Translations under genes and position numbers: made by a program
The notes under the pieces: model-generated
What the model was told of the DNA's origin: nothing
What the model saw: the letters and a program-made list of their open reading frames with translations, nothing else
The model's database searches: none
Virus record (IMG/VR): IMGVR_UViG_3300044712_001160
Location: 1 to 64,000 of that record
Reading direction: 5' to 3' (one strand)
Length of the DNA: 64,000 nt
Source: a virus
Shown here: positions 1 through 43,088 of the stretch, piece after piece
How positions within the stretch are numbered: the first letter of the stretch is position 1
Layout: each line of letters starts with the position of its first letter

Positions 1-709
1 GTGTCGGGTAATCGTTCGGGTCTTGTCCTGCTTGCGTTATAGTGTCATAAACGACGGAGGGTAAACTGTCAATCTTTTTGACGCTGAAGGTACCATTCTG
101 AAGCAGTTGAGGGCGGGTGGGGGTCTTGCTAATCACCATGTCCCACAGAATGCCGTCAACATCGGGGTAGCCTAGTTCGCGCCCCGCCGTAATGTAGAGG
201 GCCGTCTGTATAGAACGCCAGCGGTCCTCCTCGCTCAGCATCTGCCTGCCCGATTTATGTTCAACCAGCCACTTAAGCTTGTTTTGCGACCGGGCGAAGG
301 CGTCCACTTTGCCGTTGACGATGAAGTCCTCACCCTTGGGTTCCCACAGGATCTCATGTTCGGCGAGCTGGCCGTTTACCTCAAGGTACCTCAGGTGATT
401 CTTGGGCCAGAACTCGTGGTACTCCCTCATGATGGTCCAGGCTTCCTCTTTCGTTTCCTGGAACATTTGGACTTCTTCGGTGAAGTACTTCCGCTTGTTG
501 ATCTCCGCCTCAGCCCACTTGTCGAGAGACTTGCGAATGTTCTTCACGCCTTCGATAGTGTCCTCGATCACCTTGTGGACAGCACTGCCGAACGTCAGCG
601 GCCTTGCGACACGACGACGACTCAGCTTAAGGTTGTATCGGTAGTTATAGCTGGCCTTGCAGGTATTCCAGCGGTTAGCCTTCGATTGGCTAATGGTCAT
701 CTTGGTCAT
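1..709 (-). CDS. PD-(D/E)XK (RecB/Cas4-like) nuclease, 3' end outside window
   Basis: The reading frame starts MTKMTISQSKANRWNTC and stays open to the left edge, so the C-terminus is missing. The core of the RecB/Cas4-type nuclease superfamily is visible: an N-terminal GSAVHKVIE segment (GxxxH), then GKVDAF, the catalytic VEHKSG strand, and a downstream QTALYI helix. Such proteins cut DNA exonucleolytically and in phages usually work beside the replicative polymerase in recombination or end processing. Its ATG overlaps the polymerase stop (ATGA at 706-709), implying translational coupling. The missing part prevents judging whether it carries the Cas4-type Fe-S cysteines. Family assignment is firm; the exact role is inferred. 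Confidence 0.85.
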   Translation of the reverse strand, partial: MTKMTISQSKANRWNTCKASYNYRYNLKLSRRRVARPLTFGSAVHKVIEDTIEGVKNIRKSLDKWAEAEINKRKYFTEEVQMFQETKEEAWTIMREYHEFWPKNHLRYLEVNGQLAEHEILWEPKGEDFIVNGKVDAFARSQNKLKWLVEHKSGRQMLSEEDRWRSIQTALYITAGRELGYPDVDGILWDMVISKTPTRPQLLQNGTFSVKKIDSLPSVVYDTITQAGQDPNDYPT

Positions 710-3492
710 CGTAGTCCAGCCTCCCTGAGCTGACGTCTGTAACGGGTTTTGTTTCGGGGTATCATGGGCATCCTCGGGAACGTTCGGCCTCGGCGTCGTT
801 GGGCTTCCTTCCACTTATCGAGTGAAACGCCTGCACCCCACGGGCCGATTGATGCCTCGGCCTCAATTGGAACGCCCAGGTGAATGCGGAATTTCTCGAA
901 CAGTGCGGGTTGAGCCATCACCTCAAGAATACGCTTGTAGACAACCTCGACCATGTCGTCCCGTACTTCGAAGAGAATGGCGTCATGAACAGTACCCACA
1001 ATGTGAAGTACGTCGGGGCCAAACTCTCGGCGAAGTTGAATTGCAGCCATCAAGTTAATTTCGTTGGCGAACGATTGGACTGGGCTGTTGATAGCTTGGC
1101 GTTCGGCGGCTTGAGCGTCAGGGGATTTGTCGTTTCGCATAGCCGCAGGAAGCCGGCGTTTGCGTCCCGACAGGCTTCGGACAAAACCCTCAAGCCTTGC
1201 ACGGCGTCGTTGACGGTTATGCCATTGAGGTAGATCAGCGTAGAGCTCAAAGTAGGCGATACGAGAGTCCTGTGCTTGCTCATCGGTAATGTCCACACCA
1301 TAGTTATCGCGGGCATATAGGCGAAACTTCTTCCACCACATTCCGTAGAGGTAGCCGAAGTTGATTGCTTTCGCTTTCTTTCGTACTTCCTTCCAGTTGA
1401 TGCCGAGTTCTTCGCTTGCGCCCTCGCACCTCTTCGGACCAATCTTCAGCAATGCTTCGATGGCATCGCCGTACTTCATTGTCTCGCCGGTGAAGTGCTT
1501 AACGGTGCGAATAACCTCTTCCTTCATCGCACCAGAACGACCGATCTCACGAATGGCGGTCAGCCAGTGAACGTCAATCCCGGTGCGGTACGCATGAAGA
1601 AGTGCCTTATCTCCCGATAGTTCGGCTGCAATTCGCATCTCAATCTGGGAAAGGTCCGCTTCGATGAGGGTCCATCCAGGGGGTGCAGTAATAAGCGTCC
1701 GTATCTTTTTGTCACGAGGTACCTGTTGTAGATTAGGATTCTCGCAGGAAAGTCGACCTGTAACTGTTCCATGTAGCTTGAACGACGGGTGAAGTCGACC
1801 GTTAACAAGGAAACGACGCCATCCGTCCACAAAGGCGGTGAGCTGTTTCTGGGCTGCCCGATAGTCGAGAAGTGCTTTGGCAATTTCATGGTCTGTTCGA
1901 AGCAGGACACTCTCCGACGTTGAAGGAGAGCCACCAGCTGTTTTTTCGATGATCGGCAAACCAAGGTGGTAGTAGAGAAACGTCGAGAGTTGTTGAGATG
2001 ACCCCCAGTTAAGATATTGGTACCGACCGCGCTTGTCTCCGATACGCTCGCCTGCGGGAACATCGGACTTCTCGACAAAGGTCTTGTCCTTTGTATCCCA
2101 TGCAACCTTTGACGAGTAACGGTCGAGTTTTTCTTGTGCCTCATCAATCTTCTCCTTCAGGTATTGCTCGACTTCATCAAGGCGCTTAGTGTCGATGAAC
2201 ACCCCGTGGTATTCAGCCTCAACGAAGAGGGCCACGCAAGGCATGAGAATCTCTTCAAAGACACGAAGCAACGCCGTATCCTTGTAGAGCATGGGGTAAA
2301 ATATCTTCTTGAGCTCGAGGGTATAGTAGGCATCCTTCGCACCGTACTTCAGGAATGCCTCGAGGTCGTCGCCCGTTCGCTTCGTCTCCACGTCGATATC
2401 GAAGGGCATGGCACCCAGGAACACCTGTGGAAGTACCTTCAGGCTGTGCTGAGCATTTTCGTCCAGCAGGTAGTGAGCGAGCATCGTGTCGAAGTCGGGA
2501 AACCACCTAACGCCGTAATGAACCAGCATCCACAGTGCATCGAACTTACCGTTGTGGGTGACGATGTAGCAACGCTTCAGTCGGTCATCAATCTGGTGAA
2601 TGATCTCAACTAGCTGACGCTTTGACCATGGCGAGGCCGGGTGATCCATGAGCAGAATGAACTGACCGCGCTTCGTGCCAAACTGAACCGAAACGATCTT
2701 CTTCTTTTCTTCGCCTGTACCCGGGACATCCCATGGATAGAGGCTGTTTGTCTCGATATCGTAGGACACGTCACCGCGAAGCGCTCGAAGCATTTCCTCG
2801 AGCTTTGCCCGACTATCCACAACGGTGATGTTCAGCCCTTCTTCTTCAGGCATACCGCCGCCGTCGATCAGCCGCTTGAAAAGGCGAAGGTCAGCCTCAA
2901 AGGGTGCCTTCGCTCGATCATCATGTAGAATGTAGCCAGGACTGTAGGTCGGCAGGTAAATGATGCCGTCAAGTTCAACGGGATTGCCCCGTGCTTTCTT
3001 AATGCCTTTGATGTGAAGCAGTGACTCGAGTGGGGTGTTGCCGAGTAGCAGTACATACTTCGGCTTGACCGCTTTAATCCGTTCCTGAACCCAATGGCGA
3101 CATTCGCGTAGCTGAGCAGCGGAGGGTGTCTTGTTGTCCGGCGGTCGACAACTAACGGCGTGGGTGAAGTAGACCTTGCTTAGGTCAATGCCGGCTTTGA
3201 TCAGCTCTTCGCGGATCATCGTGCCCATTCGACCCACGAAAGGTTCACCCGCTTCATCCTCCGTGGCGCCCGGCGCTTCGCCTATGACCATCACGTCACA
3301 TGGGATAGTGCCCCGACCTGGCAAGCAAACGGTTTTGCAGCCCATTTCGTGAAGTCGGCACCGGGTACAACCGCTGTCCGATAATGCTAAGGTTAGCTTA
3401 TCGAAGAAGTCAGTTTGCTTCGAGGACTTCTTGGGTTCTTTCGTTGACGAGGTACCCTGAGGGCGAGAGCCGGAAAACTTCAATTTGGGCAT
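706..3492 (-). CDS. Uracil-DNA glycosylase family 4 / DNA polymerase I (family A) fusion
   Basis: Replicative DNA polymerase of about 928 residues. Residues 40-205 form a family 4 UDG-like domain: cysteines 42, 45, 115 and 131 are candidate Fe-S ligands, and GEAPG (71-75) and EPFVG follow. The usual catalytic TYHP motif reads TYSP, with Ser184 in place of His, so glycosylase activity is doubtful. A proofreading exonuclease follows (DIET 245-248, NGKFD 314-318, YxxxD ending at D387). Polymerase motifs are A (DLSQIEMR, D613), B (KAINFGYLYG) and C (VHDA, D837), with about 50 extra residues between A and B. The ATG at 3492 overlaps the upstream deaminase by 83 bases; a TTG at 3507 is an alternative start. 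Phage SPO1 polymerase has a comparable UDG fusion. Confidence 0.95.
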   Translation of the reverse strand: MPKLKFSGSRPQGTSSTKEPKKSSKQTDFFDKLTLALSDSGCTRCRLHEMGCKTVCLPGRGTIPCDVMVIGEAPGATEDEAGEPFVGRMGTMIREELIKAGIDLSKVYFTHAVSCRPPDNKTPSAAQLRECRHWVQERIKAVKPKYVLLLGNTPLESLLHIKGIKKARGNPVELDGIIYLPTYSPGYILHDDRAKAPFEADLRLFKRLIDGGGMPEEEGLNITVVDSRAKLEEMLRALRGDVSYDIETNSLYPWDVPGTGEEKKKIVSVQFGTKRGQFILLMDHPASPWSKRQLVEIIHQIDDRLKRCYIVTHNGKFDALWMLVHYGVRWFPDFDTMLAHYLLDENAQHSLKVLPQVFLGAMPFDIDVETKRTGDDLEAFLKYGAKDAYYTLELKKIFYPMLYKDTALLRVFEEILMPCVALFVEAEYHGVFIDTKRLDEVEQYLKEKIDEAQEKLDRYSSKVAWDTKDKTFVEKSDVPAGERIGDKRGRYQYLNWGSSQQLSTFLYYHLGLPIIEKTAGGSPSTSESVLLRTDHEIAKALLDYRAAQKQLTAFVDGWRRFLVNGRLHPSFKLHGTVTGRLSCENPNLQQVPRDKKIRTLITAPPGWTLIEADLSQIEMRIAAELSGDKALLHAYRTGIDVHWLTAIREIGRSGAMKEEVIRTVKHFTGETMKYGDAIEALLKIGPKRCEGASEELGINWKEVRKKAKAINFGYLYGMWWKKFRLYARDNYGVDITDEQAQDSRIAYFELYADLPQWHNRQRRRARLEGFVRSLSGRKRRLPAAMRNDKSPDAQAAERQAINSPVQSFANEINLMAAIQLRREFGPDVLHIVGTVHDAILFEVRDDMVEVVYKRILEVMAQPALFEKFRIHLGVPIEAEASIGPWGAGVSLDKWKEAQRRRGRTFPRMPMIPRNKTRYRRQLREAGLR

Positions 3493-3883
3493 CGAGAAGC
3501 ACGCCAATCCCTGTTTTTATTCTGTAAGGAGATTGATAGTATACACGCTGAATGAGTCCCGAGTCAACGATGGCATTGGCACAATCCGGACATGGATTGC
3601 TCGTAACATACAGGTCAAATGGCCCCTGACCCACTCGAAGTTCCATTCGGTCGAGAGCATTGATTTCCGCATGGACCGAACGAACACAACCACCTGTGGG
3701 TCCCAACGAACAGCCGTTGCCTTGGCAGTGGGGTTCACCCGAAGGTGGGCCATTGTAGCCGATAGAAACTGGGTCTCGGTTGTTGCTGATGATGACCGCG
3801 CCGACGTTGCCTCGAAAGCAAGTTGATCTTCTAGCAGCCAACTCAGCAATCCCCATCCACAGTTGTGCTCGAGATATCCTCAT
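3410..3883 (-). CDS. dCMP deaminase (deoxycytidylate deaminase)
   Basis: A 157-residue zinc-dependent deaminase converting dCMP to dUMP, the precursor of dTMP. The zinc/catalytic signature is present: HAEINAL (His ligand and catalytic Glu) and NPCPDCANAI (the two Cys ligands). The family's early GNVGAVI strand and GYNGPP motif are also present. An extra Cys/His cluster (HCQGNGC) resembles the second metal site of phage-type enzymes. It sits between a 19-codon ORF (ATGA overlap at 3880-3883) and the polymerase, whose start lies inside this gene. In context it feeds the ThyX gene at 29 kb with dUMP and competes for dCMP with the hydroxymethylase-like protein at 4671-5528. Confidence 0.93.
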   Translation of the reverse strand: MRISRAQLWMGIAELAARRSTCFRGNVGAVIISNNRDPVSIGYNGPPSGEPHCQGNGCSLGPTGGCVRSVHAEINALDRMELRVGQGPFDLYVTSNPCPDCANAIVDSGLIQRVYYQSPYRIKTGIGVLLDAQIEVFRLSPSGYLVNERTQEVLEAN

Positions 3884-4557: not shown

Positions 4558-4674
4558 TCACCTTTTCCGATATTTCCAACCACGTGTCGCATGATAATAG
4601 CGTTCTCGATCACCCTTGACAATAGTCCGGATGACCCTGCCATATGGCTGGCCTTTGGTGATCCTTTTCTTCAT
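4558..4674 (-). CDS. Small basic protein, 38 residues
   Basis: The frame begins MKKRITKGQPYGRVIRTI and ends GWKYRKR; roughly a third of the residues are Lys or Arg. The ATG overlaps the stop of the hydroxymethylase-like gene (ATGA at 4671-4674), as at most junctions in this operon. The composition suggests nucleic-acid binding. It is followed by the hairpin at 4471-4507. No family is recognised, but the coupling and basic bias make it a credible gene. Confidence 0.6.
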   Translation of the reverse strand: MKKRITKGQPYGRVIRTIVKGDRERYYHATRGWKYRKR

Positions 4675-5528
4675 CGACGGGGTCCTTTCCATTCAATGCC
4701 CATTGGGCGGGTGTCATTGATGAACATGTGGAGGCTGGTGATGTGCATGATGAAGAAGCCTGGTCGAACCCAGTCCCAGACCTTGGGCCGACGCTTCCGC
4801 AGCTGATGCATAATCCACAGGTGAAGCCTGATCGTGAGGTAGCAGTCATCCGCCCAGTGTCGGTAGAAGTCACACGACCTCATGTAGTAGGTGCAGTGGA
4901 AGTATCCGTGGCGGAGGATGAAGTGATAGCCGAGCGTGCAGGGCTTTCGGCCTTGAACGGTAACGTCCTCCGGGTAGTAGATCGGCAGATATGCTTGGCG
5001 AGTGTCGGGCTCTTCGGCCAGCGTGTTGACCAAGTCATTCAGGTCGCCATACTCTGCACGAATGCCCTGGTGAGCGATGGGCGTAAAGTCGCCCTCAATC
5101 TCTTGAGCATACTCTTCGGCCGTTTCCGTTGCGCGTTCAACCACTCCGGCAAACTTCGGCCAATACCTCTCCATGTAGTTATGGTTGAACCGTTCACCAT
5201 AAAGGTCCAGGTGGTCGGCGGCGCTATGACCCCAAGGCCACTTCTTCCACTGAACGCCCGGGTTGATCGGGTATCCACAGACGCGCTCCTCAAAATGGTC
5301 GTCAGCCCAAGGCAGGTTGGGCTTGATGTCCTCCCGCCAATGCTCGAGGTCTTCGCTGACCATCATGACCCGGAATGACTCGTGAAGCAGTTCGATCATC
5401 TTCGCTTCGGGTCGCTGCGAGATATCGACGCCCTGCCACTTCTGACCATGAATGGCTGGGGCCGTGATGAACTGCCGGGAAAGCGCCTCCCGGGCATGTT
5501 GGAAGTTATTGTAGATCATGAGGCTCAT
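4671..5528 (-). CDS. Thymidylate-synthase-superfamily enzyme, probably dCMP hydroxymethylase
   Basis: A 285-residue ThyA-fold protein. Alignment by eye gives the catalytic Cys197 in KPCT, the phosphate-binding MRSCD block (Arg217, Ser218, Asp220), EEPDTRQ for the substrate Arg loop, and SLHMF with His267. ThyA has Asn (N177 in E. coli) eleven residues after the MRS Arg; here it is Asp228. The same Asn-to-Asp change marks T4 dCMP hydroxymethylase, which also has CT after the catalytic Cys and SLH near the end. The predicted reaction is dCMP plus methylene-tetrahydrofolate to 5-hydroxymethyl-dCMP. The presence of ThyX elsewhere argues against a duplicate thymidylate synthase. It is coupled to the upstream TS-fold relative by ATGA. 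A dUMP hydroxymethylase is the main alternative. Confidence 0.75.
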   Translation of the reverse strand: MSLMIYNNFQHAREALSRQFITAPAIHGQKWQGVDISQRPEAKMIELLHESFRVMMVSEDLEHWREDIKPNLPWADDHFEERVCGYPINPGVQWKKWPWGHSAADHLDLYGERFNHNYMERYWPKFAGVVERATETAEEYAQEIEGDFTPIAHQGIRAEYGDLNDLVNTLAEEPDTRQAYLPIYYPEDVTVQGRKPCTLGYHFILRHGYFHCTYYMRSCDFYRHWADDCYLTIRLHLWIMHQLRKRRPKVWDWVRPGFFIMHITSLHMFINDTRPMGIEWKGPRR

Positions 5529-28957: not shown

Positions 28958-29154
28958 ACTACAGGCACCTGAAGTCTGGCGGTGAATACGAACTGCTGCT
29001 AGTCGGTCATGACGAGGCCACGCTTAACCCGATGGTCATCTACCGTTCGCTAGATGATGAGGAGATCTGGTGTCGGCCGGCAAAGGAATTCTTCGACGGC
29101 CGGTTTGTACCCATCAATGAGAGACTTGAACCCAGGAGCGACTATGAGAACTGA
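28954..29154 (+). CDS. DUF1653 domain protein
   Basis: 66 residues; MNYRHLKSGGEYELLLVGHD, EATLNPMVIYRSLDDEEIWC, RPAKEFF, then VPINERL follow the YRHxKGxxYxV...VVYxxL...WxRPxxxF pattern of DUF1653, a small beta domain of unknown function found in phages and bacteria. Confidence 0.85.
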   Translation: MNYRHLKSGGEYELLLVGHDEATLNPMVIYRSLDDEEIWCRPAKEFFDGRFVPINERLEPRSDYEN

Positions 29155-29965
29155 AATCGGAAATCACGGCGTGGTGAAGCTCATTGACTTCATGGGCAGG
29201 GACGATGATATCGTCCACGCGGCGAGAGTCAGCTATGACCCGGCGAGCACCACGATCAAGCGCGACGGCCGTGGGCTCATTCGGTACCTGTACCGGAACA
29301 AGCACACTACGCCCTTCGAAATGTGTGAGCTGAAGTTCTATATCAAGATGCCCATCTTTGTAGCTCGCCAGTGGATCCGTCACCGGACGGCCAACATCAA
29401 TGAGTACTCCGGCCGGTACTCCGTGATGAAGAACGAGTTCTACATTCCCAATGAGGTGAGAGTTCAGTCCAAGTCGAACAAGCAGGGCAGCGATGGTCGT
29501 ATGACCCTGGACGAAATGATGAAGTTCGCTTGGGACGATACAGCAGCCGACGCATTCGAGATCTACAACACCCTCGTGAGCGAAGAGGTTGGCGTAGCTC
29601 GTGAGCTGGCGAGGATTCACCTGCCGCTCAGCACCTACACCGAGGTTTACTGGAAGATCGACCTGCACAACCTGCTTCATTTCCTGAAGCTTCGGACGGA
29701 CCCCCACGCCCAGCTAGAAATTCGGCAGTATGCCGACGCCATGGAACAAATGGTGTCTGTGTTGTATCCGCTCGCGTATGAGGCCTGGGTCGACTATTCC
29801 AAGGAGGCCTACAATATGAGCCGGATGGAGCTGGTGCTTCTGCGGTCTCTGGCTAGCTCGCGCGATCCGTCGATTCTTCGGGGTCATCTTGAACCTCATG
29901 CCAAAGAGCTGGGCATGACGGATCGAGAAATCGCCGACTTCCTCAAGGTACTTGGGGTCGAATAG
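29144..29965 (+). CDS. thyX: Flavin-dependent thymidylate synthase ThyX
   Basis: 273 residues. The ThyX signature RHRTANINEYSGRYS (79-93) is complete, and FYIPNEVR and KLRTDPHAQLEIR blocks fit the family. ThyX methylates dUMP to dTMP using methylene-tetrahydrofolate, NADPH and FAD. Start ATG 29144 overlaps the DUF1653 gene. Its presence means the thymidylate-synthase-fold proteins at 4.7-6.3 kb are not needed for dTMP. Confidence 0.96.
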   Translation: MRTEIGNHGVVKLIDFMGRDDDIVHAARVSYDPASTTIKRDGRGLIRYLYRNKHTTPFEMCELKFYIKMPIFVARQWIRHRTANINEYSGRYSVMKNEFYIPNEVRVQSKSNKQGSDGRMTLDEMMKFAWDDTAADAFEIYNTLVSEEVGVARELARIHLPLSTYTEVYWKIDLHNLLHFLKLRTDPHAQLEIRQYADAMEQMVSVLYPLAYEAWVDYSKEAYNMSRMELVLLRSLASSRDPSILRGHLEPHAKELGMTDREIADFLKVLGVE

Positions 29966-38065: not shown

Positions 38066-39271
38066 ATGTCCATCCTGGGCACTCTCAGACCAGCTAACCC
38101 CAACGAGTACTACCTCGTTACTGAGAGACCCCAGGAGAATATCGAAGCTTGGCTTCTTGGCGGCGATGGCTATCACCTTCGTGGAAAAGGGCCAATCGCC
38201 GCTCCGGCTTTGGAGCCTGGTGCGCCAGTTGTAGCTGATGGCGCCGCCGTTGAAGAGCCTGACACTCTTGAAAGCCAATCGGCGTTGGGTCTTCCGATCC
38301 TCGCCGATCTGTCAGTAACTGAAGACAGCGACTCTATATTCGCCGACGCAACCCTGACAATCCTCTCATCCGCTGCGATGACAGAAGCTGCGGATACGAT
38401 TGTCACCTCAGCTACTCTTGACCTTCGAGCTTCCGCTTCAATATCGGAAGCTGCGGATACGCTCTCGAGTTCCGCTGCCGTTGCTATAGTATCTTCTCTC
38501 GCCATCACCGAGGGCAGCGACAGCATCTCTGCTTCGGCCACACTAAGTATTCTTGCAAGCGCTACCCTAACGGAAACCGCCGATACACTAACCTCGGCTG
38601 TATCGTTGGCGATCATCGCCACACTGGGCGGCGTTGAGCAGCCAGACGTCGTTTCGTCCACAGCTTCGCTGAGCGCTTCCCCGATAGCTGCTGACGCCGC
38701 CCTTACGGAAGGCGCCGATAGCTTTGCCTCGACTGCCACACTAGCCGTAACGGCCAACGTTGGCCTAACCGAAGCTGCCGACAGTATTACCTCGACCGCC
38801 TCCGTTTCGATCTCCGCTTCGACCACCATTACTGAAGCCGCCGACGTAATCTCCACCGATGCTCGACTGGCCGTCAACGCTTCGCTCTCCATTGTGGAAT
38901 TGGGCGACGTTGTTCAAGCTGAAGCGCGCGTAGAGATCAACGTAGATGCCCTCCTGCTAGAGGCCGGCGACACAGTTATTGCCATCGGCGAGTTTGCTCT
39001 TGGGGCTTCCGTTGTAGTTACAGAAGGCAATGATAGTCTACTTGCTTTCGGCCGCATTATCTTCCTGCCTACGCCTGACGTGCTTGAGGGCGACGGTGAA
39101 GCGGCTACGGTAATCGGTCGACTAGGTACCTTGCCCGTTACAGTTCAAGGTTCAGCTAAAAATGCCACGCTCTCGGGTCGACTTTCCGGCATTCCTGTAG
39201 TATACGGTGCTAACAATGCCCCGCCAGCGCTTATCGGACGTGCATCCAACAACACCCTAATCGGGCTCTAA
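38066..39271 (+). CDS. Repetitive beta protein, about 14 imperfect 22-23 residue repeats
   Basis: 401 residues. From about residue 60 to 350 a unit of the form LTEAADTIxSxAxLxIxASA repeats, each marked by E..D(S/T) (for example VTEDSDS, MTEAADT, ISEAADT, ITEGSDS, LTETADT, LTEGADS, LTEAADS, ITEAADV). The regular acidic-Ser/Ala beta pattern suggests a stacked or solenoid-like strand structure on the virion surface. Codon usage differs among repeats, so expansion is old rather than recent. Function (decoration, adhesion) is inferred from position. Confidence 0.7.
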   Translation: MSILGTLRPANPNEYYLVTERPQENIEAWLLGGDGYHLRGKGPIAAPALEPGAPVVADGAAVEEPDTLESQSALGLPILADLSVTEDSDSIFADATLTILSSAAMTEAADTIVTSATLDLRASASISEAADTLSSSAAVAIVSSLAITEGSDSISASATLSILASATLTETADTLTSAVSLAIIATLGGVEQPDVVSSTASLSASPIAADAALTEGADSFASTATLAVTANVGLTEAADSITSTASVSISASTTITEAADVISTDARLAVNASLSIVELGDVVQAEARVEINVDALLLEAGDTVIAIGEFALGASVVVTEGNDSLLAFGRIIFLPTPDVLEGDGEAATVIGRLGTLPVTVQGSAKNATLSGRLSGIPVVYGANNAPPALIGRASNNTLIGL

Positions 39272-40201: not shown

Positions 40202-40581
40202 TGCCCAAACTCTTCGGCCTCGCAATCGACCAGATCATTCACCGGGAACTCTCTCCCGGTCTTCTCAAGGGAACCCTTTATCGGGATATTAATGGAGTAA
40301 GAAATGCAAACGACCCAACCGCTGGCCCTGTTGGTGGTTCAACGACTGCCCATTCCTTCAAGGGCATCATCCAGTACTACCGGGACAACGAAGTAGACAA
40401 CGAGCTTGTCCTGAAGGAGGATCGAAAGATCCTCATCATCGCCAAATCCATCAAGCCGGCAATCGTGCCCGAAATAGGCATGAGGGTTCAGATGAGCGAC
40501 AACCCCGGAAACACCTTCCAGGTTGTTCGCGTCAATCGAGACCCAGCCAGCGCCACCTATCTCTGTCAAGGTCGACTCTGA
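40201..40581 (+). CDS. Head-closure (neck) protein
   Basis: 126 residues; a beta-barrel pattern (SFKGIIQYYRDNEVDNELVL, DRKILIIAKSIKPAIVPEIG, MRVQM, NTFQVVRVNRDPASATYLCQ) matches head-completion proteins of the SPP1 gp16/lambda FII type. It sits between adaptor and MuF-like gene as expected. Confidence 0.7.
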   Translation: MPKLFGLAIDQIIHRELSPGLLKGTLYRDINGVRNANDPTAGPVGGSTTAHSFKGIIQYYRDNEVDNELVLKEDRKILIIAKSIKPAIVPEIGMRVQMSDNPGNTFQVVRVNRDPASATYLCQGRL

Positions 40582-41321
40582 TGACACCCGAACGGACAGA
40601 GAAACTACTTCGCCGCTTCCGTCGTGCAATACGACAGCAATGGCTTCGTGCTGTTTCCGCTGTTGATGCTTCTCAAGACGCGCGGGTTGCGGCGGAGCGT
40701 TTCGCAGACTTGGTGATACGGCAGGCTATTCTGGCGGGGTATGCCGAAGCCAATCACCTTAAAGGCGTCTTCGACCCAACGTCTTCTGCGGAACGCTTTC
40801 GCGTCGAGAGAGCTGGAATCGTGTCACGGTTTCTCGCTGACGCTCAGAGGGGACGAGGCGGGTTCTCCTCTGGGCTTAGCGCACGTCAGCTGAGAGACCT
40901 CCGCGCATATGCCGCAACACTGGAGGCCGCTACTCTCGACGCGATTGACTTCAATGCTCGACCGACCTTCACGACCCTCGAGTCTCGTCGGATGCTACGT
41001 CGAGTTGAGCAGGCTATGGTTCGTCAGCGAGCCGAGGTGATCTCGCGCACTCAGGCCATGACTGCGCTTCATCTTGGCCTCGATGTTGCGGTCGAACAGA
41101 CCCAGACTGTGGAAGGCAAGCGTATCGCCCGTAAGTGGGTGACCGCTCAGGATGAGAAAGTTCGTTCGTCCCACGCTTCCCTTAACGGTCAGGTCAAGTT
41201 CTTCAACGAGCCGTTTGTCTCGGGCAACGGCAATTGGCTTATGAGACCCGGGGACCCATCAGCACCTGCATCCGAAACCGTCAACTGCCGGTGCATGCTA
41301 ATCACGGAGCAAGTCGAATGA
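40581..41321 (+). CDS. Mu F-like/SPP1 gp7-like minor head protein
   Basis: 246 residues. An N-terminal helical region precedes the conserved C-terminal module: VISRTQAMTALHLG, WVTAQDEKVRSSHASLNGQV, ending in NCRCMLI. These proteins associate with the portal and may be injected or help assembly. The stop overlaps the protease start. Confidence 0.88.
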   Translation: MTPERTEKLLRRFRRAIRQQWLRAVSAVDASQDARVAAERFADLVIRQAILAGYAEANHLKGVFDPTSSAERFRVERAGIVSRFLADAQRGRGGFSSGLSARQLRDLRAYAATLEAATLDAIDFNARPTFTTLESRRMLRRVEQAMVRQRAEVISRTQAMTALHLGLDVAVEQTQTVEGKRIARKWVTAQDEKVRSSHASLNGQVKFFNEPFVSGNGNWLMRPGDPSAPASETVNCRCMLITEQVE

Positions 41322-42205
41322 GCGATTTCTCTTCTCTCTACGCTTACCGCCATCTCGAATGGGAAGACGCCCAAGCCATCATCGCTTGGGCTCATGAGCA
41401 AGGCATCGAGACAACGATCCCCGCCTACGACCTTCACGTCACCGTCATGTACTCCGAGGCGGCCTTCGGATGGTCGCATGACGACGCCGACCGCGAGAAT
41501 CTGATGATCCGTGGCGGCGAAAGGCGGATCAGTAAATTTGGTGAGGATGGCAATGTACTTGTCCTTGAGCTGGAATCCGATTACCTTCAAAGACGCCATC
41601 AAGAGTTGATCAACCGGGGTGCAATGCCATCTCACACGCCCTATCGCCCTCATATCACGATCACCTACAACGGCGAAGGGGTTGACGAAAGCCAGATAAC
41701 GCCATATAGTGGCGACATTCGTCTTAGTGGCGAGTGGATGCAGCCGGTCACCGGCAACCCCTACGGAAAGAGCTTCAAGCTGATGTCTGGCTTCCAATCT
41801 TTCGGCAAAGCGCAAGTGCTTAAGGTTCATTCGAAGCTTGGGTTGGTGGTCGGCTACGCCATCGTGTCGAAGATCAACGGTGAAGATTACTTCGACCACC
41901 ACGGCGATCATATCCCCGAGGACTCGATGCTCGAGGCTACTGTGGATTTTATGAAGTCGAGCCGTATCTCGACTGACATGCATACGTGGAAGAATGGAGA
42001 ACCCACGCCTGATGGTGAAGTGGTTTTCGCTTTCCCGATGACCACGGATATTGCCAAGAGCCTGAACATCCAGGTCGAGAAAACTGGCCTGCTTGTGGGC
42101 ATCATGCCGTCGAAAGACGTGCTGGCTAAGTTTGAAAGCGGCGAGTACACCGGCTTCTCAATCGGTGGTCGTCGGATTGAAGATGAGGAGGTGACGGATG
42201 CCTAA
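41318..42205 (+). CDS. 2H phosphoesterase-like domain fused to XkdF-type prohead protease
   Basis: 295 residues. Residues 1-140 contain the two HxT motifs of 2H phosphoesterases (LHVTVMYS, 40-42, and RPHITITYNG, 112-114) with about 70 residues between. Residues 175-285 (LVVGYAIVSKINGEDYFDHH, GDHIPEDSM, then GLLVGIMPSKDVLAKFESGE, YTGFSIGGR) match the XkdF phage serine protease family, with Ser281 in GFSIGG a candidate active-site residue. The EIALVDxPA segment that normally closes such proteases is instead at the start of the next gene. Protease cleavage of head proteins is likely; the 2H domain could hydrolyse cyclic oligonucleotides or RNA ends. Confidence 0.8.
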   Translation: MSDFSSLYAYRHLEWEDAQAIIAWAHEQGIETTIPAYDLHVTVMYSEAAFGWSHDDADRENLMIRGGERRISKFGEDGNVLVLELESDYLQRRHQELINRGAMPSHTPYRPHITITYNGEGVDESQITPYSGDIRLSGEWMQPVTGNPYGKSFKLMSGFQSFGKAQVLKVHSKLGLVVGYAIVSKINGEDYFDHHGDHIPEDSMLEATVDFMKSSRISTDMHTWKNGEPTPDGEVVFAFPMTTDIAKSLNIQVEKTGLLVGIMPSKDVLAKFESGEYTGFSIGGRRIEDEEVTDA

Positions 42206-43088
42206 CGGACGTCGCATCATGCGGAGGTTTTCCATGGCCGAGATTGCGGCTGTGGACGAACCCGCTCAGGCCGGTGCACTCATGTCTATCATGAAGGCTC
42301 GAGGCCCTGGCGGAAAAGAGCCGGAGAGCCCGGCAACGGTCAAAGCAAAGGAGGACTGTATGTCCAAGACCGCAGAAGAGCTGCAGGCCGAGCTCACGAA
42401 ATCGGCTGATGAGCTGGCGAAGGCGAATGCCCGAGCCGAGCGTGCGGAAAAGCTCGGTGAACTCACCGATGCCGAGCGCTCGCACTACAAGTCGCTCAAG
42501 GGCAAAGCTCAGGATGAGTTCCTGGCGAAGTCCGCCGACGAGCGCAAGGCCATTGTGGATGAGGCCATCGCGAAGTCCCGTGAAGCTGACCCCGTGATCT
42601 ACAAGTCGAAGGTCACCGGCGCCGAGTACCGGAAGTCGGACGATCCCCGCCTGATCGACATGGCGAAGCGTGACGACGAGCGCGAAGAGGACCTTCGCAA
42701 GATGCGCGAAGAAGCCGCCAACGCTGTCTTCGAGAAGCGTGCTTCCACAGAGTTCGCCAAGTTCAAGGGTGACCTGACCGCGAAGACCACCCTCGTGAAG
42801 GCCGTCGCCGGCATCAAGGACGACGCGCTCCGCGCTGGTGTAGAGGAAATGCTGAAGGCCGCTCACGGCGCCGTCCAGCTGACCCTCAAGGAAGTCGGCA
42901 GCAAGAAGGACGACTTCACCGCCGACGACATGAACGACGACACCAAGAAGTCGGCTGAAGCGAAACTCGATCAACTGGCGAAAGCCCGTTCGGCCGAGAA
43001 GAACGAGCCCTACATCAAGGCGTACCAGGCCGTTCTGAACAGCGACGAAGGCAAGGCTCTCTACGCCAAGTCTGTCGGCGCCGCGTAA
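42198..43088 (+). CDS. Protease-tail segment plus scaffolding protein
   Basis: 296 residues. The first 54 (RRIMRRFSMAEIAAVDEPAQ, AGALMSIMKA) look like the usual C-terminal tail of a prohead protease. From Met55 (ATG 42360, with AAGGAGG five bases upstream) a Lys/Glu/Ala-rich coiled-coil protein follows (SKTAEELQAELTKSADELAK, ARAERAEKLGELTDAER), typical of scaffolding proteins. Two starts in one frame would give a long form and a 242-residue scaffold, as in lambda C/Nu3. It overlaps the protease gene by 8 bases in the +1 frame. Scaffold identity rests on composition and position before decoration and capsid genes. Confidence 0.8.
   Translation: MPNGRRIMRRFSMAEIAAVDEPAQAGALMSIMKARGPGGKEPESPATVKAKEDCMSKTAEELQAELTKSADELAKANARAERAEKLGELTDAERSHYKSLKGKAQDEFLAKSADERKAIVDEAIAKSREADPVIYKSKVTGAEYRKSDDPRLIDMAKRDDEREEDLRKMREEAANAVFEKRASTEFAKFKGDLTAKTTLVKAVAGIKDDALRAGVEEMLKAAHGAVQLTLKEVGSKKDDFTADDMNDDTKKSAEAKLDQLAKARSAEKNEPYIKAYQAVLNSDEGKALYAKSVGAA

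Follow-up and report, generated by a model that had tools for sequence, protein, structure and literature searches.

The window analysed here, a stretch of 64,000 nucleotides, belongs to an IMG/VR viral record of 67,168 bases (IMGVR_UViG_3300044712_001160) and carries, among its head genes, a single open frame in which a nuclease domain of the Acb1 (anti-CBASS) kind precedes a head maturation protease of the XkdF type. The features of the locus are the following.

40581..41321, + strand: MuF head morphogenesis protein, the upstream neighbour (PF04233, E 1.4e-13; 4-base overlap with the fusion gene)
41318..42205, + strand: Acb1-XkdF fusion gene, 295 aa, single open frame
41333..41752, + strand: Acb1 (anti-CBASS, 2H phosphoesterase) domain, residues 6-145 (PF23474, E 1.1e-30; model matches 7t26/7t27)
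41435..41443, + strand: HxT motif 1, H40-V-T42, aligned with T4 Acb1 H44/T46
41651..41659, + strand: HxT motif 2, H112-I-T114, aligned with T4 Acb1 H113/T115
41753..41815, + strand: flexible linker, residues 146-166, disordered in the model (pLDDT <50 at 150-164)
41816..42190, + strand: XkdF-type head maturation protease domain (Peptidase_S78_2), residues 167-291 (PF14550 and alignments)
41981..41983, + strand: putative catalytic His222 of the protease, invariant in alignments
42158..42160, + strand: putative catalytic Ser281 of the protease, in GFSIGG, invariant in alignments
42198..43088, + strand: scaffold-like coiled-coil gene, overlapping the fusion gene at its 3' end (PHROG 24785; same place in most relatives)
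42240..42269, + strand: EIAAVDEPAQ segment at the start of the scaffold-like frame, resembling a segment inside the protease polypeptide of S78 enzymes

Genomic context of the fusion gene

The head genes of the window run in the order TerL, portal (Portal_Mu), connector proteins, MuF, the Acb1-XkdF fusion, the scaffold-like gene, cement and major capsid protein, and the start codon of the fusion gene overlaps the MuF stop by four bases (ATGA). This place, between portal/MuF and scaffold/capsid, is the one expected for an XkdF-type protease, and the nearest counterparts of the protease and the adjacent genes are in the Roseobacter phages RDJL Phi1 and Phi2. The window also shows the arrangement typical of head-packaged effectors and polyvalent proteins, an effector domain on a protein of the head interior, with its gene lying among the late head genes.

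The boundary with the downstream gene has a peculiarity of its own. A segment of the form EISxVDxPAQ lies near the beginning of the scaffold-like frame in the window (42198-42269) and in nearly all of the relatives inspected (L002, L003, L012, L017-L034 and others), while in HK97-type S78 proteases it lies within the protease polypeptide (compare L168). The protease may therefore be split over two genes; the scaffold protein may complete the protease in trans, or the segment may mark an old gene split.

Elsewhere in the window, a 401-residue protein encoded between head genes (38066-39271, +) contains numerous imperfect repeats, each about 20 residues long (TEAADTLTSxAxLxI...), and has no Pfam match. 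A uracil-DNA glycosylase domain is joined to a family A DNA polymerase with 3'-5' exonuclease at 706-3507 (-), and the genome holds both a ThyA-like thymidylate synthase (4671-5528, -) and ThyX (29054-29965, +), a pair that is possibly linked to modified thymine bases.

Identity of the two domains

An initial sequence-only reading had assigned two motifs of this protein, LHVTVMYS (H40, T42) and RPHITITYNG (H112, T114), to the 2H superfamily and had described the domain as joined to an XkdF-type protease. Both assignments hold, the first more narrowly than proposed. The motifs belong to a complete domain rather than a lone motif match: the Acb1 model PF23474 covers residues 6-145 with 106.7 bits (cut-off 27, E 1.1e-30), whereas the generic 2H models 2_5_RNA_ligase2 and LigT reach 23.5 and 15.6 bits, both below their cut-offs. 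That the N-terminal domain is of the Acb1 type is nearly certain. In the C-terminal half of the same frame, PF14550 (Peptidase_S78_2, XkdF) matches residues 176-285 with 27.4 bits (cut-off 24, E 3.7e-6), and PHROG 1530 matches at E 3.9e-18. The latter family is labelled 'DNA methyltransferase', and it is to its protease-like part that the window protein aligns; the PHROG match for the 2H half is an 'RNA ligase' family, an old label common for phage 2H proteins.

Predicted structure and active sites

An AlphaFold2 model built from 72 related sequences, taken from the window and the fetched viral loci, has a mean pLDDT of 89.1 and a pTM of 0.63, and consists of two confident domains with a disordered linker between them. 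Residues 1-140 are mostly above a pLDDT of 90, and confidence is low only at 150-164 (pLDDT <50) and, more mildly, at the C terminus. The sequence-only reading had named structure prediction as a check, and the predicted 2H fold is indeed of the Acb1 type: the best matches in the PDB are those to FBB1 Acb1 in its apo (7t26, E 1.6e-9, TM by target 0.73) and cGAMP-bound (7t27, E 7.0e-9) forms, followed by the BCSR5 phage phosphodiesterase, named Acb1, with open and closed lid (9q2y, 9q2g), and then by E. coli LigT.

In T4 Acb1 the catalytic tetrad comprises H44, T46, H113 and T115, with Y12, W74, F107 and W147 stacking on the bases and E141 contacting adenine (PMC9117128). The tetrad aligns with H40, T42, H112 and T114 of the window protein and Y12 with Y8, while H106 stands in the place of F107 and the alignment at W74 is ambiguous. 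The lid residue W147 has no equivalent in the window protein or its two nearest relatives, which carry NPYGK there instead, and E141 corresponds to Q142 in the window protein, a position that is Q, K, R, A or E across the fusions. E141 is a specificity residue of the T4 enzyme and not a family-defining one; the position varies widely in other fusions that score above the Pfam cut-off. With Y8 and the whole tetrad in place, catalysis is likely, and we consider the domain very probably active; the variable E141 position and the missing lid tryptophan suggest that its substrate range may differ from that of T4. In the protease, H222 and S281 (GFSIGG) are invariant among homologues, and their putative catalytic role follows from the family.

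Relatives carrying the same fusion

IMG/VR was scanned with alignment-based protease motifs and, separately, with Acb1 motifs, yielding 157 loci. Acb1 and XkdF occur in one open frame in 13 distinct proteins including that of the window, i.e., in 12 further distinct viral contigs, and most of these fusions occupy the same slot between the MuF and scaffold genes. A ChaB match precedes the fusion in five of the scanned proteins; in three it exceeds the Pfam cut-off and in two it falls just short. Because the Acb1 scan searched for the HxT motifs themselves, conservation of these motifs in the loci that it retrieved was left out of the evidence. Eleven fusion proteins (window included) were retrieved solely through protease motifs, a selection that is blind to the 2H motif, and are 39-58% identical to the window protein; H40, T42, H112, E139, H222 and S281 are invariant in all of them, with Thr or Ser at position 114. 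The chance of finding three of the four tetrad positions among the 17 invariant columns is 0.006. In the close pair L022/L033, the Acb1 part has a dN/dS of 0.18 and the protease part one of 0.22, showing purifying selection on both halves. As one open frame recurs in independent contigs and is constrained in this way, the fusion is no sequencing or frame artefact, and its reality is as good as certain.

Single-sequence pattern scans of viral and genome contigs, with patterns that proved too specific, returned no relative, and a scan of the genome contigs with the fusion alignment found protease relatives only, all lacking Acb1. Among deposited phages, tblastn revealed the fusion in none, and no record covered 80% or more of the window protein or the fusion proteins of L024, L097 or L168.

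Several related observations concern annotation and the N-terminal slot. In L003, L055, L058, L082 and L085 this slot of XkdF is occupied by a ParB-like domain with a DGHHR motif, a possible reason why databases carry the label 'DNA methyltransferase/prohead protease'. Acb1-domain genes have been deposited as 'prohead protease' in KT870145.1, MH015255.1 and OM621816.1; the two inspected, from DSS3P8 and Edwardsiella ZHS, are Acb1 genes with no protease match and are wrongly labelled. Gp24 of Caulobacter phage Sansa (L176, 11832-13022) has an XkdF-like protease (profile comparison, E 1.4e-12) behind an N terminus that resembles Acb1 and lacks the HxT motifs; neither Pfam nor the profile supports this N terminus as Acb1. 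Gp24 may be a decayed fusion and, if it is homologous, the domain may persist without catalysis in some lineages.

Acb1 on other head proteins

The XkdF protease is one of several fusion partners. In one prophage (L168) Acb1 lies ahead of an HK97-type S78 protease (PF04586, E 1.8e-28); it forms the C terminus of Portal_3 (L113) and Portal_Mu (L124) proteins, is placed between portal (Phage_portal) and MuF in one protein (L127), and stands ahead of MuF in L099, L101 and L129, where the MuF matches are weak and below the cut-off. It also occurs in polyvalent-type proteins, in L105 with ART-PolyVal and in the long multi-domain proteins of L098 and L112. In L035 the portal carries Acb1 and the protease does not. 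No Acb1 fusion to a major capsid, terminase or tail protein was noticed in the loci examined, which were Pfam-scanned in part. The property common to the partners is a place inside the head, which for the polyvalent proteins is a proposed one.

In an Acb1 tree from a quick search, with several long branches, the portal fusions form a nearly pure group and the protease fusions are scattered. A single origin of the protease fusions, modelled as one clade, is rejected by the AU test (p 0.013; 0.017 without L021). Together with L035, this scatter indicates that Acb1 has become attached to head proteins on several occasions or is passed between them. That relatives carry it on several head proteins suggests a use of the head in producing or transporting an immune antidote.

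Proposed mechanism

The explanation that we prefer as a whole, with a probability of roughly 0.5, is that an Acb1-type nuclease is carried by the XkdF protease and delivered by the particle. The 2H domain would cleave cyclic di- or trinucleotide alarms; the protease, as carrier, would bring it into the prohead, and part of it would remain in the mature head. The nuclease would then enter the next cell with the DNA and blunt cyclic-nucleotide signalling, through CBASS or similar systems, ahead of new phage proteins. Considered separately, an action on immune cyclic nucleotides is probable, and an action through the particle, with presumed virion location and injection, is about an even bet. The sequence-only reading had already proposed a place for the domain inside the prohead; the head-operon position and the recurrence of the domain on portal and MuF proteins and on both protease families are compatible with it.

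As a rule, HK97-type maturation proteases do not persist in mature heads, being degraded or lost, which makes retention of the protease uncertain and would argue against delivery by this route. Release by self-cleavage had also been suggested for the window protein and found no backing in the sequences: the linker is disordered, ranges from 13 to 75 residues across the fusions, and showed no shared motif among them when one was looked for. That the nuclease is set free in this manner is possible, though we doubt it.

A second use of the fusion can be envisaged, in which the nuclease is produced in step with the CBASS trigger, because a prohead protease can itself act as that trigger. For phage Bas13, an interaction between the prohead protease and a CBASS sensor is reported (Richmond-Buccola et al. 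2024, reference 49 of PMC12409349), so that an antidote borne by the protease would be made at the time and place of its trigger. Extending this idea, phages may repeatedly tie an enzyme that destroys cyclic nucleotides to an assembly protein that triggers CBASS, making trigger and antidote one molecule, with the head also bringing the antidote to the next cell as a pre-loaded evasion device on the maturation protease; this broader view is speculative and we regard it as unlikely at present.

In one alternative, the domain acts late in the producing cell, without staying in the virion or being injected. Its attachment to the protease would then set the dose, time and place of an antidote made alongside the assembly proteins that CBASS senses. 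The prohead protease as a CBASS trigger (Richmond-Buccola et al. 2024, cited in PMC12409349) fits this view, as do the escape of acb2-deleted phage from CBASS with the help of major capsid mutations (PMC10419184) and the existence of stand-alone Acb1 genes, such as T4 57B and those of a 146-150 kb roseophage group. However, the partners seen in the partly Pfam-scanned loci are head-interior or polyvalent proteins, with none noticed on major capsid, terminase or tail, and polyvalent partners are not expected from capsid-triggered sensing alone. We therefore favour delivery by the particle over mere late expression, since what the partners share is a place inside the head, and consider late action alone rather unlikely.

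The two remaining alternatives concern the chemistry of the domain. It could be an inherited N-terminal module for docking or assembly in which catalysis is unnecessary, in keeping with an XkdF N-terminal slot that may hold nothing, a ChaB-like, a ParB-like or another small domain, and with the possible decay in Sansa gp24. Such a role is improbable in view of the HxT...HxT/S residues and E139 kept in all 11 unbiased fusions at their level of divergence, the chance of 0.006 for three of the four tetrad positions, and the dN/dS of 0.18 in the Acb1 part. Alternatively the domain could work on RNA, as a nuclease or 2',3'-cyclic phosphodiesterase, instead of on immune cyclic nucleotides. A Usb1-like RNase was one of the options proposed for 2H domains in PMC5512222, the adenine-contact residue of T4 is unconserved in the fusions, and structures of the LigT type do match, if more weakly. 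Against this, Acb1 structures are the top matches, the Acb1 Pfam model outscores the sub-threshold RNA-ligase and LigT models by a wide interval (106.7 against 23.5 and 15.6 bits), and these 2H versions never accompany RNA ligases (PMC5512222), which leaves an RNA target slightly more improbable still.

Work on anti-CBASS nucleases deals with free proteins of the cytosol. Should the head-linked forms be functional, the particle would bring its own antidote, and a prediction made in 2017 would become directly testable in simple two-domain proteins. The link to the prohead protease additionally raises the question of whether trigger and antidote are merged in one molecule.

Comparison with known systems

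The general idea is already known, and the architecture described here is a variant of a theme, that of enzyme domains on head proteins. Iyer et al. described 2H domains on MuF and portal proteins in 2017 (PMC5512222) and 2022 (PMC9503650), and proposed that they are packaged, injected and destroy nucleotide alarms, including in action against nucleotide-activated immunity. The sequence-only reading did not know the fusion as a described evasion strategy; for 2H domains on MuF and portal the same proposal is thus in print, while for the 2H-protease fusion, its S78 version and the evidence of several origins no description was found in open-licence papers, most subscription papers lying outside the search.

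One of the closest known systems is Acb1 itself (T4 gp57B, FBB1 Acb1; PF23474), with which the window domain shares the fold, the HxT/HxT tetrad, the tyrosine equivalent to T4 Y12 and the conserved glutamate (E139). T4 gp57B is about 27% identical over the tblastn match and is a stand-alone protein, whereas the window domain is fused to a head protease, has Q142 at the place of E141 and lacks the lid tryptophan. The 2H-portal and 2H-MuF fusions (the Pam3 portal 8hds, Pseudomonas phiPSA1, Rhizobium portals) likewise put the same Acb1-type domain on a head-interior protein, with the same proposed purpose; in the portals the domain is C-terminal, while in the window it is N-terminal and its partner is the maturation protease. 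The XkdF-type proteases (PF14550) of RDJL Phi1 and Phi2 are 51-55% identical to the protease part and share the order MuF-protease-scaffold-cement-capsid, but are only 132 aa long and have no N-terminal Acb1 domain. Finally, the Nudix domains joined to a capsid-processing serine peptidase (PMC9503650) and the polyvalent proteins with a C-terminal assemblin-like peptidase (PMC5512222) also combine an enzyme with a head-processing protease, for which packaging and injection have been proposed, although the enzyme domain is a different one.
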